From contig FMBT01000290.1 in the NCBI GenBank assembly GCA_900095095.1, positions 744,001-808,000 on the forward strand: a stretch of 64,000 nucleotides of DNA. The letters run 5' to 3'. How positions within the stretch are numbered: position 1 is the first letter of the stretch; the number at the start of each line of letters is the position of its first letter. The position numbers were made by a program, and so were the translations under genes. Of the stretch, positions 1,879 through 35,365 are shown piece by piece. Origin of the DNA: Fragilariopsis cylindrus CCMP1102 (lineage: Eukaryota > Bacillariophyta > Bacillariophyceae > Bacillariales > Bacillariaceae). Under the pieces are notes generated by a model, which saw nothing but the letters and a program-made list of their open reading frames with translations, ran no database searches and was not told the origin of the DNA.

Positions 1879-2189
1879 TATTAACTGTGCTGTACTGTAT
1901 CTCTACCGTATGTATCTATACTTAGATGGGATTGGTTTGCAGTCACGTATAAATCTCAGCGTACTAGTAATTCATCGTTGTTGTTGTGCGCGCGCGCCTC
2001 TTGATTGATGATCACTCTCCTTCCTCTCAACAATTATTTGATTTTCAATTTTCGAATTTCATATTTCATTCTTGACATGAACAACATCGTACGGTATAAC
2101 TTTTGTCGACTCAACAATCATTATCTCAGCCAATAGCCAACAGCCAAACTTATTTACTGCTACGAGTCATATATATTCACAGTATTAGT

Positions 2190-3242
2190 ATGTTTGATAA
2201 TGTATCATGGGGTGAAATAGTAATTGTTGGTAGTATTGGAATAGCAATCACCGGCAAACGTGATATACCCAAAGTATGTCATTTCGTTGGTAGTCAATTA
2301 GGACGTGTCGTTGGTTTATTACAGGGTGCACGAGTACGTGCGGATCAATTTACACAACATAATGAATTAAAATCATTACAAAATGAATTACGTAGTGGTT
2401 TGCGGGAATTAGATCAAGTAAAAACTGAATTAGCAATTGCTGCATCATCTTCTGGTATGGTTGGTCGTTCCTTAGGACAAACAACTATGTCCGCAAATAA
2501 AAAAGGATCATCGTCGTCGTCGTCGTCGCCGAACGTTGTTTTTCCTCCATCATCGTCTTTTCTATCATCAACGACTAATAAGAACAATAACATCAATAAT
2601 CACAATAGAATAGAACAACAACAATCCTCTTTACAGATGAAAGATTTTGATTTTCATATTAACTCTGATGATTCTTCTTCAGATGATAATCTTGCTGCGA
2701 CGACGACAGGTCATAACAACGATGCTCATGATCATGCTCATCCGAATCAACATCAAAATCAAAATCAAAATCAACAACAACACAACCAAGAAGGAGTTGC
2801 TGCTGCCTTATCATCATCATCATCATCATCATCATTATCATCATCGCACTTATTATCACCAGTCCTACAAACTGAACGAGCTGTTATGGAAGAAGAATGG
2901 AAGAAACAAGGAATTGGTTTCCGTGCACGCGCAGAACAAGGATTATGGATCGATAATAATAATAATGACAACAACAATGCAAGTAATAACAATACTAACA
3001 ATAATAACAATACTAATAACAATAACAATGATGGTAGTAGTAATAATAGTAGTATTATAACAGATGCAACAAGAGCAACGGGTAGTGAATTATTAGAACA
3101 TATACAAAGAGAAGTATTAATATTTGATCAATATGATCGTGTGGTTGGTGAGCAAGAAAATCAAATCCAACAAAGAATTAATAGAATACAAAAAGAACGT
3201 AGTAGTAGTAGTAGTAGTAGAAGTAAAAGCACTACAAAGTAG
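2190..3242 (+). CDS. TatB/Hcf106-like membrane protein with low-complexity tail
   Basis: The first about 60 residues resemble the TatA/TatB family of twin-arginine translocase subunits: MFDxVSWGEIVIVG, a short hydrophobic helix, a KRDIPK hinge in place of the usual G-P-K/R-xLP, then an amphipathic helix (VGSQLGRVVGLLQGAR). The start with Met-Phe-Asp is TatB-like. The remaining about 280 residues are Ser-, Asn-, Gln- and Asp-rich, with short ordered segments near 240-265 and 310-340. The predicted protein is 350 residues. The ATG at 2190 is chosen because it places the helix at the extreme N-terminus; the open frame extends 29 codons upstream without an ATG. A role in organellar Tat transport is an inference. 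The last about 110 bases are copied at 9430-9544. Confidence 0.55.
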   Translation: MFDNVSWGEIVIVGSIGIAITGKRDIPKVCHFVGSQLGRVVGLLQGARVRADQFTQHNELKSLQNELRSGLRELDQVKTELAIAASSSGMVGRSLGQTTMSANKKGSSSSSSSPNVVFPPSSSFLSSTTNKNNNINNHNRIEQQQSSLQMKDFDFHINSDDSSSDDNLAATTTGHNNDAHDHAHPNQHQNQNQNQQQHNQEGVAAALSSSSSSSSLSSSHLLSPVLQTERAVMEEEWKKQGIGFRARAEQGLWIDNNNNDNNNASNNNTNNNNNTNNNNNDGSSNNSSIITDATRATGSELLEHIQREVLIFDQYDRVVGEQENQIQQRINRIQKERSSSSSSRSKSTTK

Positions 3243-4615
3243 TAATAATAATACTTGAAAAAATGATAATTGAAATATCAGAAAGAAAGAAAAGAAAAAC
3301 TCACACATTTTATAATTCATATTTATACTAATGCTCTTTAAGTATTCCACCCTTGCTCAAGCGGAAATATTTATTTTGTAAAGTCTATGATCCGGCTCAA
3401 AGTAGTAACCACCTGATCTATAATTCTAGTTCTAATTACATTCCAAAATTGTTTGGGAAGGCATTTTCCACAGCAATCCAGGCCGGCTCAACAAGTTCCG
3501 GATTATCGGCCAACTTGCTGAAGATGCTGCCTGGCCACCCTTGCACGTACAATCCTTCCGACACGACCTCTTTGGAACATGGATCTTGCAATCCACCGGG
3601 AACGCTGTAATCAACCGTAACCTCCACTAATGGGCAAGTACACGTCACGTTGTGTTGACCAAAATGGTAAGGGTTTTCCGACGGCGCCGAATACCAACAG
3701 GGTGCCCCCATGCAAACGGGAATGAATCGACCGGGGGCCGCTTCGCACTCCCAGGAGGCCAGGTAATTGCCGTCTTCGTCAACCTGGACATTGTTTTCCG
3801 GCCTCAGTTCTGCAGAATACGTCGATACTAAATCAGCACCGGGCCATAATGATTCGTCATTCATGGCATTGCAAACCGGGGTCTTGTCGCGCGTGAGTTC
3901 TAACGGCAACTGCACACCGCATCCGTCGGGAGAGCTTACACAAGCTTCATAGTAAGCCTCGACTGTGGCTTGCCGGAGACCTTCGTCAGGAATTAACGAA
4001 ATCCGCATGCGACTAATACCACTTGGCTCGTCAAATCCGTAACAACCGCACGAGGCCGTCGTTTCGTCGGCATTTATGGTGCAATTCGCAAAGGCGCACA
4101 AAGCGTATGGGCTGGTGCATTCGACCAAAAAGCTTTCGATCAATTCGATATCGTGCAATAATGATGCGGCTGCTGCTTCAGCGGTTGACATGTTCATCAT
4201 CTTCCCTAGAAAGGTTAGGCACAAAAATAATTGTGCAGCCGTTGTTGTCGTTGTCATTGTTGTTTTCATTTTTTTTTCTTCTTTTAAAGTATTTTGCTTT
4301 TCTAATTTGTGAGCTCTTCACTTCAATATTATCTCAAATTCGCGATGTAAAAAGAGTAAGTGACCAAGTACTGTAAACAACGAAAGCGCCGTGTATATGC
4401 TAAGTAAGTACTTGAAGTACTGTAAACAACGAAAGCGCCGTTATAAAATGGGGAAATCAATCGTGCATTCGCGCAATTTTATGCCCTGATGTTGGATTTC
4501 CTGTAGAGTGTTTGAAATCTGCGCGCGCGACATTTCTTTGTTGGTCCTTCCTTCAAAGCAGGAATAACTGTACAGGATCGGCACAGCAAACTTCCTAAGC
4601 AGAATTAGAATTATT
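3132..4615. repeat. left arm of a roughly 1.5-kb inverted duplication
   Basis: This stretch matches the reverse complement of about 7855-9544. It comprises the last coding bases of the TatB-like gene, its 3' flank, the whole secreted Cys-rich gene, its promoter with two copies of a motif containing GAAAGCGCCG, and about 180 bp more upstream (to about 4615). Identity is high but not perfect. Homology stops abruptly inside the TatB-like coding region near 3132. Confidence 0.85.
3436..4269 (-). CDS. secreted cysteine-rich protein, short paralogue
   Basis: Single-exon protein of 277 residues. A signal peptide (about residues 1-33, Thr-rich start, hydrophobic core TAAQLFLCLTFLG) precedes a cysteine-rich body with motifs such as YALCAFANC, CGCYGFDEPSG and NVTCTCPLVEV, and a possible N-glycosylation site at NVT. 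No known domain is recognised. It is the paralogue of the gene at 8283-9245 in opposite orientation. Relative to that copy it lacks 48 residues containing four cysteines just after the signal region, carries about five extra residues near the middle, and is six residues shorter at the C-terminus. The family is probably lineage-specific and extracellular. Base composition is more GC-rich than the neighbouring genes. Confidence 0.75.
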   Translation of the reverse strand: MKTTMTTTTTAAQLFLCLTFLGKMMNMSTAEAAAASLLHDIELIESFLVECTSPYALCAFANCTINADETTASCGCYGFDEPSGISRMRISLIPDEGLRQATVEAYYEACVSSPDGCGVQLPLELTRDKTPVCNAMNDESLWPGADLVSTYSAELRPENNVQVDEDGNYLASWECEAAPGRFIPVCMGAPCWYSAPSENPYHFGQHNVTCTCPLVEVTVDYSVPGGLQDPCSKEVVSEGLYVQGWPGSIFSKLADNPELVEPAWIAVENAFPNNFGM

Positions 4616-5100
4616 ATCGATTTATCATGATGATTATAACTACTATCATCATCGATCACCCAGAACAAGACGAAGAGGAAAAAGAAAGGGAAGCATCTTC
4701 GACTGCTGCAAAGGCATTTTTAATAGTATCATTCGGAATATGTGATATATGCACGTACAATCAAGTCATCGGTGATCATCCGTGTTGTTTGGAAGGTTTC
4801 CCGATACAGCTTGGTTGGGAATACAGGCAAGAAAACCATCAATCGCTATACATGAATACGAACAACACCAACGCCGTCAATGGTAATCGAACGAACGCAA
4901 TTGTTTACTGCCACTATTACAGAACTCCACTCTTCAAGTATTATTGCAGCCACAATGAAATCGTGCACGACCAATAATGACGACGATGATGATAAACGCG
5001 ATGATTATCATCATCATCCCACTATATTAGCAGCACCAGAGGAGCTGAAATACGTCACATACTAGCACAGTTGTCTAACACCCGAAAAACGAAAAGAAAT
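4270..5100. other. promoter side of the Cys-rich gene and unassigned spacer
   Basis: Bases 4360-4440 hold two copies of a roughly 43-bp unit containing GTACTGTAAACAACGAAAGCG, just upstream of the Cys-rich gene. To about 4615 the sequence belongs to the inverted arm. From 4620 to 5100 several short open frames exist but none shows a domain or gene-like composition. Confidence 0.5.
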
Positions 5101-5139
5101 CATTACCAAACAAATGCTATTACGACCAAGTCTTATCAC

Positions 5140-5328
5140 GCATGCCACAACTGCTACCATATTGTCAGTAGATTCCTTTGGCAACAGTTTGACAGAAGAA
5201 ACATCTAAATTCCAGTCACTACGATTGATATCAGCAACCACCATCTGTTGTATAGTTGAATCGGATTCTATTTTGTGCGGACTTTCTAAAAAAAACGCGT
5301 TCGAATGCATCATCAATGTCATCATTAT
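5140..5328 (-). pseudogene. fragment copied from exon 1 of the gene at 9865
   Basis: On the minus strand this matches about 55 codons of the gene at 9865-11062 (near 10055-10230), sharing FLESPHKIESDSTIQQMVV and SVKLLPKEST. The copy has small insertions and loses similarity on both sides, so it is an isolated exon scrap and not a functional gene. It lies in inverted orientation to its source. Confidence 0.8.
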
Positions 5329-5350
5329 TAATTATTAATATCTTAAGATA

Positions 5351-6673
5351 TTATATTATATTATTATTATTTGGATATGTATATTGAAATAATTTCATTA
5401 TTTTTGGATTTAATGTTTGTATTGCAAATTGTATATCCTCAGATGTCATATTCTGTATACGACGACTATACGCATCGGTATTGCCATATTTTATCATTGC
5501 TGTTATAAAATTATTATGTTCTATTTTTTGATTATGATCTGGTTTTGATTCATTTATATTATATATAAATTTAGTACTAGTACTAGTACTATTACTTAGT
5601 GATGTTTTCATAGTACCACCACCACAATTACAAACTTTTTCTATAACTTGACGTGGATAAAATAATGTATCTTCAAATCGTACAATAAGTCTTGGCCAAA
5701 ATGTTGATGATGATGATGATAATGATGATGACGCTGATTCCTCCTTGTGGTACTTGCTGTTGTTGTTGTCGGTACTATTATTAGTATTATTAAATAAATA
5801 TGATTCGTACCATTCATTCCAATAGTGTATTAATGATGGCCAAGTTGGACCGACTTGTCGATTTGGACCCATCCAAACTTGAACAGAAGATGAGTTAGTG
5901 TTGTTGTTGTTGTTGTTGTTACCTCTGAAAAATTGTTTAAATTGTTTCTTATCATATTCATTTGGTACTAAATTAGGACAATGGTATTTTGAATTATGAT
6001 CCCATCGTACACCATATCCTTCTTTACACATAGATTGCATCCAAAACATTGGATCTTGAATGAAATGAATACAAACAAACAAACAAAAACGATGACGACA
6101 AGATAAGAGTGTAAATAAGCGTAGAATAAGTACAGGAAGCATCTTTCTTAAAAACCGAAACTTGGTTTGGGTATGACACTGACTTGACTTTACTTCACTT
6201 GACTCTAACTCTAACTCACCTCGAATTAATACAATTGGTAGTACATTTTCACCTTTTATTATAGTATTCTCTATTGTAGGGTGGTTATTATTATTCTTGA
6301 TATACAAATCACGATATTGTGACATCTTATGTTTCCTCCATGGTACTTGATTTAATATCCTATTAACACTTTTTATATCCTTTGTTATACTAATAACAGT
6401 ATCCTTATCATTATTGGTAGTAGTGGAATAATCAGAAGAATCTTCGCCGCCATCACCACCAGAAGAATCTTTATTAGTAAGGAAATGACAATTATTTTGT
6501 AATGTTATAGCAAATGCTGTTGTACCAGAATTAAAATTTCCTGCTATACCTAAAAACCGATCCGAATATTTGACACGTTGACGGAATTCTCCACAGGTAT
6601 CTAATCCAATAATGATAGGACCACTCCTAGGTTCAGAATTATCATAATCTATATATTTACTTCCAGATCTGTT

Positions 6674-6704
<31 letters not shown>

Positions 6705-7159
6705 CCCGTCCTAGTAGTAGAAGAACTTCTATTATTATTATTGTTGGTGTAGTAAAGTTCAGTAACAGAAGACCACATCGGTAATCGAAGAACATCCATC
6801 GGATCGTATGTATCAATCCCAGCATCTTTTAATATTGATAATACATGTTCTCGTCCTTTACTTGCCTCTTGAAAAGTCAAGTCATTATTTGTACTAACAT
6901 TAGCATTAGGAGTAGTAGTAGTACCACTATCATTTGTTAAATAATGAGATAAAACATTCTTCTCCATCGTCATCGTCATCGTCGTCGTCGATGGCGACGT
7001 AGAAGATTGGCGATGATGATGATTTTTGTCATCCATCTTTGATCCGTCATTATTATTATTATTATTATTACTATTGTTGTTGTAACTATTGGAAGGTTTG
7101 TTGTCGTCTAACGATGCTGAAATGATGCTTGCCATCGTCGATTGTTTTTCATCATTTTC

Positions 7160-7194
<35 letters not shown>

Positions 7195-7606
7195 GATTAT
7201 ATTTCTGTTCGGTGGTCATTGCTATTTGATTTGTATGATAATCATTTTCATTTTCAATCCTTTGATCTAAATGATAAGATACCGTAGAAAAAAATGAGAG
7301 GAAACATGATACAAAGAAAATTCGACGCAGAATAACAATGGCTAAACTTGATTGACGTTGATGTTGACGTTGATGAGTCGTCGTCATCGTCGTCGTCGTC
7401 GTCGTCGTTCTTCTTCTCCCCGTTAATAGTCGACATAAACACCGTTGGAGTAGCGGTAATACTATTGTCTTCCACCACTGCGACCAGCTGCTATTAGGAA
7501 GAACATTGTCGTTGAATTTGTATTCGAATTCGAATGATTGTTGTTCTAGTCCTAGTCCTGATGGCAACACTTTCTCGTTCTTGTTGTTTCTTCTTGATGA
7601 CGCCAT
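5351..7606 (-). CDS. sulfotransferase-like type II membrane protein
   Basis: Two exons, 7606-6220 and 6054-5351, joined over a 165-nt GT-AG intron that happens to stay open in frame; removing it restores the motif VLIRDPMFWMQSM. The protein would be 696 residues. A short cytosolic N-terminus and one membrane helix (about residues 88-108) precede a long Ser/Asn/Gln-rich stem, then a P-loop sulfotransferase-like domain. It carries a 5'-phosphosulfate loop-like GNFNSGTTAF, the RDP...S motif of the 3'-phosphate site, an HYWNEWY segment and a C-terminal IKYGNTDAY region. The same order appears in the gene at 36704-38429. It probably acts in the Golgi on glycans or proteins; the substrate is unknown. 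It sits between the two arms of the inverted duplication. Confidence 0.7.
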
Positions 7607-8282
7607 ACCTATCTCAAATCCAAAACATAAGAAAATTGCATTGTTATAATCACTTCTCTTCTCTTCTCTTCTCTCTCTCTCTCTCTTACCAGTCTCGCTC
7701 TCGTTTTGTCTTCAATGACTCGGAGAAAGGTATTGTTTGCAGTACGGTACGTACAAAGTGGTAAGTTATGCGTTCGATGATCGATTGATTCACATGATCA
7801 CAATATCACACATGATCACACACATCAGCGGGCTACGCCATCATCATAATTCTAATTCTGCTTAGGAAGTTTGCTGTGCCGATCATCTAACATCCAATAC
7901 TGTACAGTTATTCCTGCTTTGAAAGGACCAACAAAGAAATGTCGCGCGCGCAAATTTCAAACACTGTACTGTACAGGAAATCCATCATCAGTGCAGAAAA
8001 TTACGAAAAATTGCGAGAATATGCGCGATTCCCCCATTATAACATCGCTTTCGTTGTTTACAGTACTTACTTAGCATAACGGCGCTTTCGTTGTTTACAG
8101 TACTTCAAGTACTTACTTAGCATATACGGCGCTTTCTTTGTTTACAGTACTTGGTCACTTACTCTTTTTACTGTAGTAAAGTACGGTATTCCAATGATAG
8201 TCGACACATCGCGAATTGAGATATTATTGAAGTGAAGAGCTCACAATTTAAAAAGCAAGATACTTTAAAAGAAAAAAGAAAA
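7607..8282. other. bidirectional upstream region
   Basis: This lies between the divergent starts of the sulfotransferase-like gene and the long Cys-rich gene. It holds a CT-rich tract (about 7653-7690), then from about 7855 the inverted arm. Three copies of the GGCGCTTTCGTTGTTTACAG motif lie at about 8046-8065, 8085-8104 and 8130-8149, against two in the left arm. Confidence 0.6.
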
Positions 8283-9245
8283 ATGAAAACAACAACGACA
8301 ACAACGGCTGCACAATTATTTTTGTGCCTAACCTTTCTCGGGAAGATGATGAACATGTCAACCGCTGAAGCAGCAGCTGCATCATTACTGCACAACATCG
8401 AGCAATGCACGGATGAGTTTAAGCCCGTCGTTTGCAGCAGCAGCAGCAGCAGCAGCAGCAGCACGGGCAAAGAAGACGTAAAGGAATACTTCTCGAACAT
8501 GTGTATTGCATCCCGCGACAAGATTAACCCCGACTTTAATTGTGAATTGATAGAAAGCCTTTTTGTCGAATGCACCAACCCATACGCTTTGTGCGCCTTT
8601 GCAAACTGCACCGTAAATCCCGACGAAACAACGGCCTCGTGCGGTTGTTACGGATTCGACGAGCCAAGCGGTATTAGTGAAATGCGGATTTCGTTAATTC
8701 CCGACGAAGGTGTCCGGCAAGCAACAGTTGAGGCTTACTACCAAGCTTGTGTAAGCTCTCCCGCCGGATGTGACGAACACATGCGCGACAAGACCCCGGT
8801 TTGCAATGCCATTAATGACAATTTATTATGGCCCACGGCCGATTTAGTATCGACGTATTCACAAGCACTAGAGGAGGAAAACAATGTCGATTACGACATC
8901 GGTCCCAACTGGAGATGCCCAGCGGCCCCCGGTCGATTCGTTCCCGTTTGCATGTTGGCACCCTGTCTGGATTCGGCGTCGTCGGAAAATTCGTACCATT
9001 CTGGTCAACACAACGTGACGTGTACTTGCCCATTAGTGGAGGTCACGGTTGATTACATCGTTTACGGTGGATTGCAAGATCCATGTTCCAAAGAGGTCGT
9101 GTCGGAAGGATTGTACGTGCAAGCTGCGGGAGGCAGCATCTTCGCCAAGTTAGCCGATGATCCGCAACTTGTTGAGCCGGCCTGGATTGCTGTGGAAAAT
9201 GCCTCCCCTAACAAGTTTGGAATGAAATTAGAACCAGAATTATAG
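8283..9245 (+). CDS. secreted cysteine-rich protein, long paralogue
   Basis: Single-exon protein of 320 residues, starting at the ATG that aligns with the start of the paralogue at 4269; an ATG 51 bases upstream is also in frame but lies in a lysine-rich leader. A signal peptide is followed by a region absent from the other copy: a (AGC)n poly-Ser tract and four cysteines. After that the two proteins align throughout, with conserved YALCAFANC, CGCYGFDEPSG, RDKTPVCNA, NVTCTCPLVEV and LQDPCSKEV. Function unknown. Secretion is likely and disulfide bonding is inferred from the conserved cysteines. Confidence 0.8.
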   Translation: MKTTTTTTAAQLFLCLTFLGKMMNMSTAEAAAASLLHNIEQCTDEFKPVVCSSSSSSSSSTGKEDVKEYFSNMCIASRDKINPDFNCELIESLFVECTNPYALCAFANCTVNPDETTASCGCYGFDEPSGISEMRISLIPDEGVRQATVEAYYQACVSSPAGCDEHMRDKTPVCNAINDNLLWPTADLVSTYSQALEEENNVDYDIGPNWRCPAAPGRFVPVCMLAPCLDSASSENSYHSGQHNVTCTCPLVEVTVDYIVYGGLQDPCSKEVVSEGLYVQAAGGSIFAKLADDPQLVEPAWIAVENASPNKFGMKLEPEL

Positions 9246-9339
9246 GTCAGGTGGTTACTACTTTAAGCTGGATCATAGACTTTACAAAATAAATGTTTCC
9301 GCTTGAGCAAGGGTGGAATATATAAAAAGCATTAGTATA

Positions 9340-9544
9340 AATATTAAGAATAAAATGTATGAGTTTTTTTTTCCTTTCTTTCTGATATTTCAATTATCAT
9401 TTTTTCAAGTATTATTATTACTACTTTGTAGTGCTTTTACTTCTACTTCTACTACTACTACTACTACTACGTTCTTTTTGTATTCTATTAATTCTTTGTT
9501 GGATTTGATTTTCTTGTTCACCGACCACACGATCATATTGATCT
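9340..9544 (-). pseudogene. copied 3' end of the TatB-like gene
   Basis: On the minus strand this repeats the last roughly 35 codons and the 3' flank of the TatB-like gene, including its poly-Ser/Arg end. No other part of that gene is present, so this is a passenger fragment of the inverted duplication. Confidence 0.8.
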
Positions 9545-9864
9545 AACACGTAACTTACCGGTGCTAGCAGCTTCATCATTTCGTCTTTTTCAAATGATCC
9601 GAAATGGCGCGTGTTCTGCGCGCAATAGTTAAAATTTGATATGTATTCACGAAGTCGAATTTTTGTCTTATGAATCCGCGCTTGATATCTTTAGCCTTCG
9701 ACTATTAGAGAGACACCGAATTAAAGATCGCACCCCTTGCCTATGGAGTTTTCGACTGTGAATGGACACATAAAAATATATTTCTTGAACAATAACAATA
9801 GACTAATAGTAGGAACAGTGATTCTTGTACGTACCGATTAGTAGTAAAAAAACAACGACGGACG
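9545..9864. other. short spacer upstream of the 9865 gene
   Basis: No coding signal, repeat or recognised regulatory site seen. It begins where homology to the TatB-like gene ends. Confidence 0.4.
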
Positions 9865-11062
9865 ATGACGAAAGTAGCATACGACGTAGATGACTTACTG
9901 ATGAAGGTTGGATTTACGAAGCAAGATATTGCAAAAGTGAAAAAGGGTTTTGTTGTGAATAGTGTTAATATTGAAACCTTGTCGGATCGCGATCTAGCAA
10001 CTATGATTGCATTTGAATTTGAAATAAAGAATAAGAATACTGAAGAAGGAGTTAATGTTAATGATGACATTGATGCATTCGAACGCGTATTTTTAGAAAG
10101 TCCGCATAAGATAGAGTCCGATTCAACTATACAACAAATGGTGGTTGATATCAATCGTGATGGGAATTTAGATTTTTCGTCTGTCAAACTGTTACCGAAA
10201 GAATCTACTGGCGATATGGTCAAGTCGTATATGAAATTCCAAGGTGGTAGTGAATTAAATTTATCACTAAAGGAAATTGATATGTTTCAAGCAATAGATA
10301 ATACTCATCCTGATCTAAAAGGACAGGTTGAAATGGTCCTTGGTAAAGTATTACAAGGTCGATTAGAAGAAGTACGTTTTTTGTTGTTGTTTTTACAAGA
10401 TATGATTCTTATATTTTTTTTGATAAGCCTGTTTTCTGTTCTACATTATTCTCATCAATTGTCTCTTTTAATATCTATGCTTGTTCCTTCTAATTCGAAT
10501 TAATATATAGTATCAGCATCTTGGATTAGAAGGAATATCACCCTATTTGAGAAAAGGTGATAAATGTTTTTATCCCGGTAAAGAACTGCAGGAAAAAACT
10601 GAGAAAAGTGAAATATTACATCAACCACACGTTAAAGAATTTTCAGATTATATATTAAATTGGCCGTCATCATCTTCCACCTCTAATGGCGGCAATGACA
10701 ATAACAGTGACAATAATAGCCACGCTAAAGAAACATATGGATGGATTAACTATAATATCGATGATAAGCCATCGATTGCATTATATCATCGTATTATTTG
10801 GTCCGATGAGACAAATACTATCAAATTTTTATTGAGTCGTACATTTTATGTATCGAAGGGACATAATAGTGTCCAACAAATTGGATTTGCTGTCCCAACT
10901 GGTGATACTTCGATATTATTAGCTTTTTCCTCACGAACATCCACAGATGCTGTTACTGGATTCGGTGGTAGTGCCAAACGTGTTATTGGAAGTCGTATAA
11001 TGAGTGGACGGATTGCTGAAAATTTTGAAGCATTGCGGAAATTATCAGCTTCGAAAAAATAA
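9865..11062 (+). CDS. conserved-looking two-exon protein, function unknown
   Basis: Exons 9865-10371 and 10517-11062 join in phase 0 (donor GTACGT, acceptor ATCAG), giving 350 residues and replacing an open but low-complexity intron translation with GRLEE-HLGLEGISPYL. The N-terminal half is mixed alpha-helical and charged. After a Ser/Asn/Gly-rich insert, the C-terminal 130 residues look like a compact domain (GWINYNID, IALYHRIIW, FYVSKGHNSVQQIGFAV, GFGGSAKRVIGSR). No family is recognised. No signal peptide is seen, so it may be cytosolic or nuclear. A degenerate copy of part of exon 1 lies inverted at 5140-5328. Confidence 0.7.
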
Positions 11063-12832: not shown

Positions 12833-13026
12833 AGGAAGAAAACTGCTTACGCCGATGCCTACGGTTCTGCCTTGTAAACTTCCTACAATAAAATGATTTG
12901 ATCAGACACTCAGAATAGTGATATGCAGCAGCATAATAAAATAACATCATAGTCGACAGTCAGTCGAAACAAAACACAAAAGAACGAAACCTCTACTAAA
13001 AATTTAAAGGGCGCGTTGAAACTTTA

Positions 13027-13438
13027 CTACTTCCTCCAGCGAAGGCTTATTTCACCCGCGCTATCGCGTGTAAATTAACACACGCCAAAGCACGCTATCA
13101 TTCAAAAAGCTAAATAATGCCCAAAAAATAACTAGCAAATACTAGTAAAACTATACAAAAACTATACATCATTCAACTGTGTGCAACTCTATCAATAAAG
13201 GATATCTTTCAAAATTTGAAGGTTCCATGTAAACCATTATTCTACACAGATTTCATATATCAACATATCAAAGTTTACCCTGGCATATTTCCTGCTGAAA
13301 TAGGCAACCTGATAGACTAAATTAGCATGTGTGAAATGCACGTTAAAAAAATCAAGATTTACCTTTGAACGTTTTAATAACACGTGCTAAATTTTCACGC
13401 GATAGCGCGGGTGAAATAAGCGTTCGCTGGAGGAGTAG
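13027..13438. mobile_element. 412-bp MITE with 43-44-bp terminal inverted repeats
   Basis: Left arm 13027-13070 and right arm 13396-13438 are inverted copies with only a few differences; both contain CTCCAGCGAA, CTTATTTCACCCGCGC and TATCGCGTG. TA dinucleotides flank both ends (13025-13026, 13439-13440), which suits a Tc1/mariner-like target-site duplication. The 325-bp core has no open frame of note. It is a non-autonomous element. Confidence 0.75.
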
Positions 13439-13727
13439 TATCGTAAAATTTTTCAGTCGTGATTGAGTTTCATAATTTATTTCTCAATAACAGAATTCTA
13501 CATACCGTATTGTCTACCTAGAACTAAATAATGTTATAGCATTACGCATGCCTAGTTAGTCGAGAAGATGCTGATAAGATGCTATACTGATATGTTTTTT
13601 TTATTTTAAATTGAAAATGATGCTGCTACTGCTATTGTACACACACACACACCAGAATAATAGGGCCTCCATTTAAGTGTTTCCCCGTTTTGTCTTACTC
13701 CATTTTTTGGTCTCAAGATACATATAA
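13439..13727. other. 3' flank of the coiled-coil gene
   Basis: A short AT-rich spacer with a CA microsatellite near 13640. Nothing else seen. Confidence 0.4.
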
Positions 13728-33769: not shown

Positions 33770-34479
33770 GATTGTTCAATTCAAATGCGAAGATTGCTTG
33801 AATTCATACACTTTGATTCTTTGATCGTCGATTCTTGCATTCTTGCATTCTTGCTTCTTGCAAGATTTTAGAGAGGCAAGAATGATGGGCAACTGCAAAA
33901 AAACGTATCCTTTTTTCTTTTTAATTTTCGCGCCAGGAGATCATGTCGAAAGCATCGAATAAATCTCCGCGTGGAACTAGTCATTGATATAAAAACTAAA
34001 TCATGCCCAAATTTTTACTAGTATTTGTTAGTGTGGTATATAATAACGACTTTAGCATCAAGTATATACACCTAAAAAGTCATTTGTTTGGAAAATTCAA
34101 CTATGAAGTTTATAATTGACCTATTGGATGGAGAACTGCTATATTCCTTAGTCTTGTAAGCCTATTGGTATCTCATAGTGTACTGCTCACACACGGCACA
34201 CATCAAATAACCCCCCAAAATGGCCCAAATGCAGTGTTTTGTGGACATACAGTACACTCAAAAAGATGAATCATCCCAAAATATATGGATGACGTGCACC
34301 ACAAATACCAAAGAGGACTTACTCCTGGTGCTTTGTGTTGATGATCCAGCTTAGGTGCGCACAAAGTTGAAAAACCCTGTTTTGGAGCCCAAATGGCCAA
34401 TTTTGTGGTTAATGCAACCCTACACCTTCATAACCTCCAAAGAAACCTAAGCATTATGAGTATCTTGTAGGTATGGGTA

Positions 34480-35365
34480 TGATGGATGCTAGTGCACCCG
34501 ACCCATCTGGTGTTGTCCTCTGCAACCTTTCCGAATGAGATATTTTGTTGTTCATTTTGATCAAAAATCATGTTGTTTGTGTGCCTTCCACACCAGCAAA
34601 ATGAATATCACTCCGCAACCACAGAAACAGGAAAGTTGTAGGAGGCAAGCACAATGTTCTAGTACTCTATGTGGATGCTAGTGCACCCAACCCATCTGGT
34701 GTTGTCCTTTGATACGGTTTTATATGAGATTTTTTGTATTCATTTCTGATCAAAAATCATGCTGTGCCTTCCATGTGTGTGCTTTCCACACCAGCAAAAT
34801 GAAGTTCATTCCGCAACCGCAAAAACGTTGTAGGAAAATAAATCTTCTAGTACATTATGTGGATGTTTGTGCACCTGACCCATCTGGTGTTGTCCTCTGC
34901 AACCTTTCCGAATGAGATATTTTGTTGTTCATTTTGATCAAAAATCATGTTGTTTGTGTGCCTTCCACACCAGCAAAATGAATATCACTCCGCAACCACA
35001 GAAACAGGAAAGTTGTAGGAGGCAAGCACAATGTTCTAGTACTTTATGTGAATGATAGTGCACCCAACCCATCTGGTGTTGTCCTTTGATACGGTTTTAT
35101 ATGAGATTTTTTGTATTCATTTCTGATCAAAAATCATGATGTGCCTTCCATGTGTGTGCTTTCCACACCAGCAAATTGAATTTCATTCTGCAACCACAAG
35201 AACAGAAAGGTTGTAAGAGGCAAACACAATGTTATAATACATTATGTGGATGTTTGTGTACCTGACCCATCTGGTGTTGTCCCGTGCGCAACCCTTTTAT
35301 TTGCCCGCAACCCTTTTATTTGAGATATCTTGTATGTTCATTATTTTTGGTCAAAAATCGTATGG
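34480..35365. repeat. higher-order tandem satellite, 189-bp monomers in 377-bp dimers
   Basis: The marker CCCATCTGGTGTTGTCC starts at 34502, 34691, 34879, 35068 and 35266. Alternate monomers are almost identical (first with third, second with fourth, both exactly 377 bp apart), while adjacent monomers are diverged: A-B-A-B-partial. The last unit is longer and has an internal short duplication of CAACCCTTTTATTTG. Confidence 0.9.

Follow-up and report, generated by a model that had tools for sequence, protein, structure and literature searches.

A locus of the diatom Fragilariopsis cylindrus raises the question of how two genes flanking a third can each have come to leave a scrap, in inverted orientation, on the far side of that third gene. 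The window, that is, the whole 64-kb stretch of DNA analysed, covers positions 744001-808000 of contig C91, lies internal to this 1.24-Mb contig, and belongs to a genome of 67.9 Mb in 818 contigs. Scanned for light-harvesting proteins (PF00504), this genome yielded 104 matches; one of them, set against PDB sequences, is closest to the LHCI chains of one entry, followed by VCPI, FCPI, and fucoxanthin chlorophyll a/c proteins, which points to an algal host. The TatB-like gene on the left is termed T, the Cys-rich gene present in two copies A, the gene between the arms S, and the right-hand gene R; t and r denote scraps of T and R, and x and y the intervals 4618-5155 and 9547-10058. The relevant features, with the basis of each in brackets, are as follows.

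2103..3242, + strand: gene T, TatB-like, open frame intact (ORF; TIGR01410 below cut-off)
3123..4617, + strand: left arm, with the T tail, intergenic sequence, and A-left with its promoter side (self-comparison)
3436..4269, - strand: A-left, Cys-rich, secreted-looking, 277 aa (ORF, alignment)
4618..5155, + strand: x, 538 bp, left side only, with a protein-family fragment (self-comparison, genome search)
5156..5327, - strand: r, part of R exon 1 (10059-10220) copied in inverted orientation (self-comparison)
5351..7606, - strand: gene S (ORF, genome search)
7843..9546, - strand: right arm, inverted copy of 3123-4617 (self-comparison)
8283..9245, + strand: A-right, 320 aa, paralogue (ORF, alignment)
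9421..9546, - strand: t, final 40 codons of T copied in inverted orientation (self-comparison)
9547..10058, + strand: y, R upstream sequence and the initial ~65 codons of the gene, right side only (self-comparison)
9865..11062, + strand: gene R, ORFs 9865-10503 and 10547-11062 (ORFs, paralogue match)
5156..9546, no strand assigned: block of 4,391 bp proposed to have inverted, with r, S, A and t all turned (inferred from order and orientation)

Duplicated pieces and the genes they touch

The preliminary description placed an inverted duplication at 3132-4615 and 7855-9544, and self-comparison confirms that it is real and that these coordinates are right to within ~16 bases. The arms, 3123-4617 and 7843-9546, are inverted copies with 1,314 of 1,448 ungapped columns identical (90.7%), which BLAST self-comparison returns as two pieces at 87% (E=0) and 76% (E=1.5e-131) with gaps counted, and they carry different in-frame deletions. 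A second inverted pair, 5156-5327 and 10059-10220, stands at 86% (BLAST, E=1.4e-49), with 14 mismatches in 162 by both BLAST and pairwise local alignment. Together, the arm pair and the r pair are the only minus-strand self-matches of at least 60 nt within the 64-kb window, as scanned by BLAST with E up to 1e-3 and the low-complexity filter on. The two gene fragments described earlier, one of the TatB-like gene in the right arm and one of R in the left flank, were both recovered by self-comparison. From left to right, the pieces run T, t-A (forward), x, r (inverted), S, A-t (inverted), y, and R; T is whole on the left with its tail scrap on the right, and R is whole on the right with its exon-1 scrap on the left. 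The repeats, their order and orientation, and the open frames are directly observed at the locus.

The outer limit of the first duplication, which begins at 3123, falls inside the last 40 codons of T. The resemblance of T to TatB holds weakly (TIGR01410, E=7.5e-4, 20 bits where the cut-off is 56.5), and the sulfotransferase-like label once attached to S was not confirmed: Pfam and NCBIfam gave only below-cut-off matches to unrelated families, and a relative of S in the same genome had no Pfam match and a single PDB match, which was unrelated (E=0.3). S is a member of a dispersed family in the genome, with diverged matches at 26-46% identity. The two R ORFs are likely one gene with an intron, and both parts match a paralogue on contigs C679 and C318 (73% and 66%), starting at 9879; as these contigs are 99.97% identical in that stretch, the paralogue was counted once. 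Because the 5' part of R, absent from the scrap, is matched in the paralogue from 9879, it looks ancestral, and the left scrap would have been trimmed rather than R lengthened.

Other repeats occur elsewhere in the window. Outside the proposed inversion, a ~416-bp element at 13025-13440 with ~52-bp terminal inverted repeats matches at least 39 other genome stretches at 79-97% (among the best 40 of 149 candidates) and has the look, from its sequence, of a MITE-type non-autonomous transposon. A tandem-like block with a period of ~190 nt lies at 34478-35282, with a 75-80% similar block within 10 kb upstream of the window (L041 5735-6410), and a short inverted repeat with 31-nt perfect arms lies at 1709-1881, following the gene at 1061-1666.

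Copies of gene A

Gene A, whose protein looks secreted when its N-terminus is judged by eye, has further copies elsewhere in the genome. Beyond the arms, a protein search returned four matches at three places, namely on C297 (one copy in two pieces), C648, and C401. The third copy, at C297:276137-277516, has a frameshift and internal stops and is dispersed and apparently decaying, and no T or R flank was found within the 30 kb compared around it. A-left is without a ~48-residue segment (holding four cysteines in A-right) that is present in A-right, C297, C648, and C401, and its frame nonetheless stays open.

Between A-left and A-right, dN is 0.11-0.12 and dS 0.17-0.20 over 266 codons. Changes confined to a single copy are lopsided across 263 A codons (right 66, left 18, C297 29), and the synonymous ones number 24 in A-right, 3 in A-left, and 7 in C297; in noncoding sequence they are not lopsided, with right 4, left 5, and C297 15 at 3304-3435, and right 5, left 1, and C297 5 at 4270-4396. 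When C648 and C401 serve as outgroups, 18 sites are derived in the right copy alone, 8 in the left alone, and 8 in C297 alone, and shared derived sites number 10 for left and C297, 6 for left and right, and 2 for right and C297. Faster evolution of A-right, or sequence exchange between A-left and the C297 copy, would each be compatible with these counts, which do not decide between the two. Because the synonymous changes are lopsided and the C648/C401 rooting did not settle the cause, gene A coding divergence was dropped from the dating of the event.

A probable inversion with duplicated breakpoints and its alternatives

The layout had been read as beyond the reach of a single duplication, and as implying at least two events or template switching. 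The former part stands, as no simple tandem or inverted duplication can carry pieces of both outer genes across to the opposite flanks; the latter does not, as one inversion yields the same order. A layout that seemingly needs several events follows from one, and we consider it probable that the locus is one small inversion (4.4 kb) with duplicated breakpoints, a known kind of event.

We infer the inversion, its single date, two subsequent losses, and a molecular route along the following lines. The ancestor would have had the order T-A-S-R, with S opposite to its present orientation. One break zone would have comprised the T tail and A, and the other the upstream portion of R with its first exon. 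Each zone would have ended up on both sides through staggered nicking of the two strands, staggered breaks of sister chromatids, or an equivalent repair copy. The block with S would then have been rejoined upside down, and fill-in would have given each junction an inverted copy of a zone: T and tA on the left, then r, S, A, and t all inverted, then R. The left flank would thereby keep tA and the right flank r, while the turned block carried inverted copies of both. Later, ~0.5 kb would have been lost at each inner edge of the block, the copy of y beside the 3' end of S and the copy of x beside its 5' end. Each broken gene would have kept one complete copy, so that T and R are still whole, and A would have become two genes as a by-product.

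The order and orientation of the duplicated pieces are those expected of such an inversion, with no further rearrangement. At the left junction, tA is followed by the 538 bp of x and then by inverted r; at the right, inverted t meets y-R at 9546/9547. At each junction, a retained zone adjoins the other zone's inverted duplicate, strictly only if x and y count as parts of the zones. By self-comparison within the window, the right side has no counterpart of x and the left side none of y, and against a single inversion stands the fact that two extra losses of ~0.5 kb must be assumed; with one such loss per inner edge, the outer junctions 5155/5156 and 9546/9547 are clean. The x interval may be spacer that lay between A and S in the ancestor and later disappeared from the right, or it may have been inserted at the junction; insertion is an alternative to loss because x contains part of a dispersed protein family that is matched 14 further times in the genome. 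The motif fragment of this family lies at 4726-4824, and another relative is located immediately before the start of the window (L041 8002-8127).

No second haplotype emerged from genome searches with the flank and most of T (best 40 of 54 candidates), the S region (best 40 of 44), or R (six of six candidates), which returned this locus, diverged paralogues, or short simple-repeat-like matches. Likewise, a search of the genome DNA with 4600-8000 showed no further copy of this segment, whether in the same or in the opposite orientation (best 40 of 44 candidates), and no relative was found in viral_contigs (part of R, A protein) or genome_contigs (part of R), collections with no other algal genome among them. 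The ancestral order is therefore predicted, these searches having turned up neither a relative with the un-inverted arrangement nor a second haplotype. The longest perfect run between the arms is 74 bp, and a flip of the middle segment by recombination between them is possible in principle. Over the stretches compared, the contig pairs C679/C318 (99.97%), C613/C147 (98.2%), and C648/C401 (90-92%) suggest retained haplotypes or recent duplications.

The retention of near-identical pairs such as C679/C318 and C613/C147 in the assembly lends some substance to an artefact in which two haplotypes were joined head to head, and the C648/C401 pair, which may be alleles or paralogues, also differs by 8-10%. 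Nevertheless, the arms differ by 9%, in excess of the C679/C318 and C613/C147 pairs, and have different in-frame deletions; a head-to-head join makes no internal scrap of the R exon lacking both R ends, and no N occurs anywhere in the window, so that this reading appears most improbable. Replication-based template switching (FoSTeS/MMBIR-like), whereby segments would have been copied inverted in one complex repair event and x would be a templated or filler insertion, yields an identical end product, and PMC7584159 argues for a repair-only route to inverted duplications at Drosophila O7; x, moreover, is without a counterpart elsewhere in the window and carries its dispersed-family fragment. As it is not required for the order and orientation, such switching is rather unlikely as the full account, and template-switch repair is possible as the molecular route of the inversion. 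On an inversion mediated by a transposon or by pre-existing repeats the observations point both ways: a genome repeat search that passes over very common words gave no dispersed repeat at the four outer and inner edges, but short dispersed matches lie inside the arms. These are ~75-nt stretches upstream of A (4417-4572; 7903-7973), which match C108, C411, and C770 at 84-93%. Outside the arms, 9647-9731 has a match on C164 (76%).

The ages of the two duplicated zones bear on a further reading, in which two or more unrelated events would have duplicated A and the T tail in inverted form and, separately, inserted the R exon fragment, likewise inverted. The pooled noncoding arm (36 of 527 positions differing) and the r pair (14 of 162) show equal divergence (Fisher p=0.49), which speaks against separate events, with the caveat that the two alignments giving 14/162 use the same scoring and are not independent. 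By MAFFT, the r pair differs at 23 of 166, which exceeds the divergence of the noncoding arm (p=0.0066), as separate events would allow; the beginning of that alignment seems out of register at a small repeat. The T tail and 3' spacer (5 of 181) have diverged less than the remaining noncoding arm sequence (34 of 466; p=0.028) and less than the r scrap (p=0.019), the latter difference again favouring separate events; all of these p values are uncorrected for multiple comparisons (21 pairs in one alignment set alone). One age for both pairs would thus fit the BLAST-type alignments and would not fit the MAFFT alignment. Gene A has also spread by another route, as the C297 copy attests, but unrelated events would make it a coincidence that both scraps are inverted and each lies at the far end of the same block, and we regard them as improbable.

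Significance and known systems

Paired reciprocal inverted scraps are suggested as a simple test for small inversions where a comparison species is lacking. Tentatively, and with more doubt than confidence, staggered-break micro-inversion might be a gene-sparing route to new genes in this alga, two broken genes staying whole and a third being duplicated and diverged; if common, it would give rise to gene pairs in algal genomes in a manner so far overlooked. A narrow search of the open literature (inversion breakpoints, inverted duplications or repeats), covering titles and the starts of abstracts, found no such diatom case. In Helicobacter pylori, DNA duplication is associated with inversion, a locus being duplicated at the break; the likeness is that of an inversion duplicating a locus at its break, in a bacterium there and in an alga here.

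The closest comparisons are Drosophila inversions with inverted duplications at the breakpoints, partial genes, and later deletions (2q and 2h, PMC3355041; O4, PMC5080602), to which PMC4965816 adds further inversions of that signature; the isochromatid and chromatid models are described as indistinguishable by the pattern of inverted duplication (PMC7584159). Like the present locus, D. mojavensis 2q has inverted duplications on both sides of the inverted segment (there ~1 kb and 4.3 kb long) and an incomplete copy of a gene, 2h has a copy on one side cut by deletions to scattered blocks, and the dating of both was drawn, as here, from noncoding divergence (PMC3355041). These are fixed chromosomal inversions demonstrated against D. 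virilis, whereas the present case is an algal one of 4.4 kb that lacks a comparison species. D. subobscura O4, in turn, is polymorphic and was compared with the non-inverted arrangement, whereas here the ancestral order is predicted only; it shares with this locus gene fragments duplicated at inversion breakpoints, which its authors held to be solely consistent with staggered double-strand breaks (PMC5080602).
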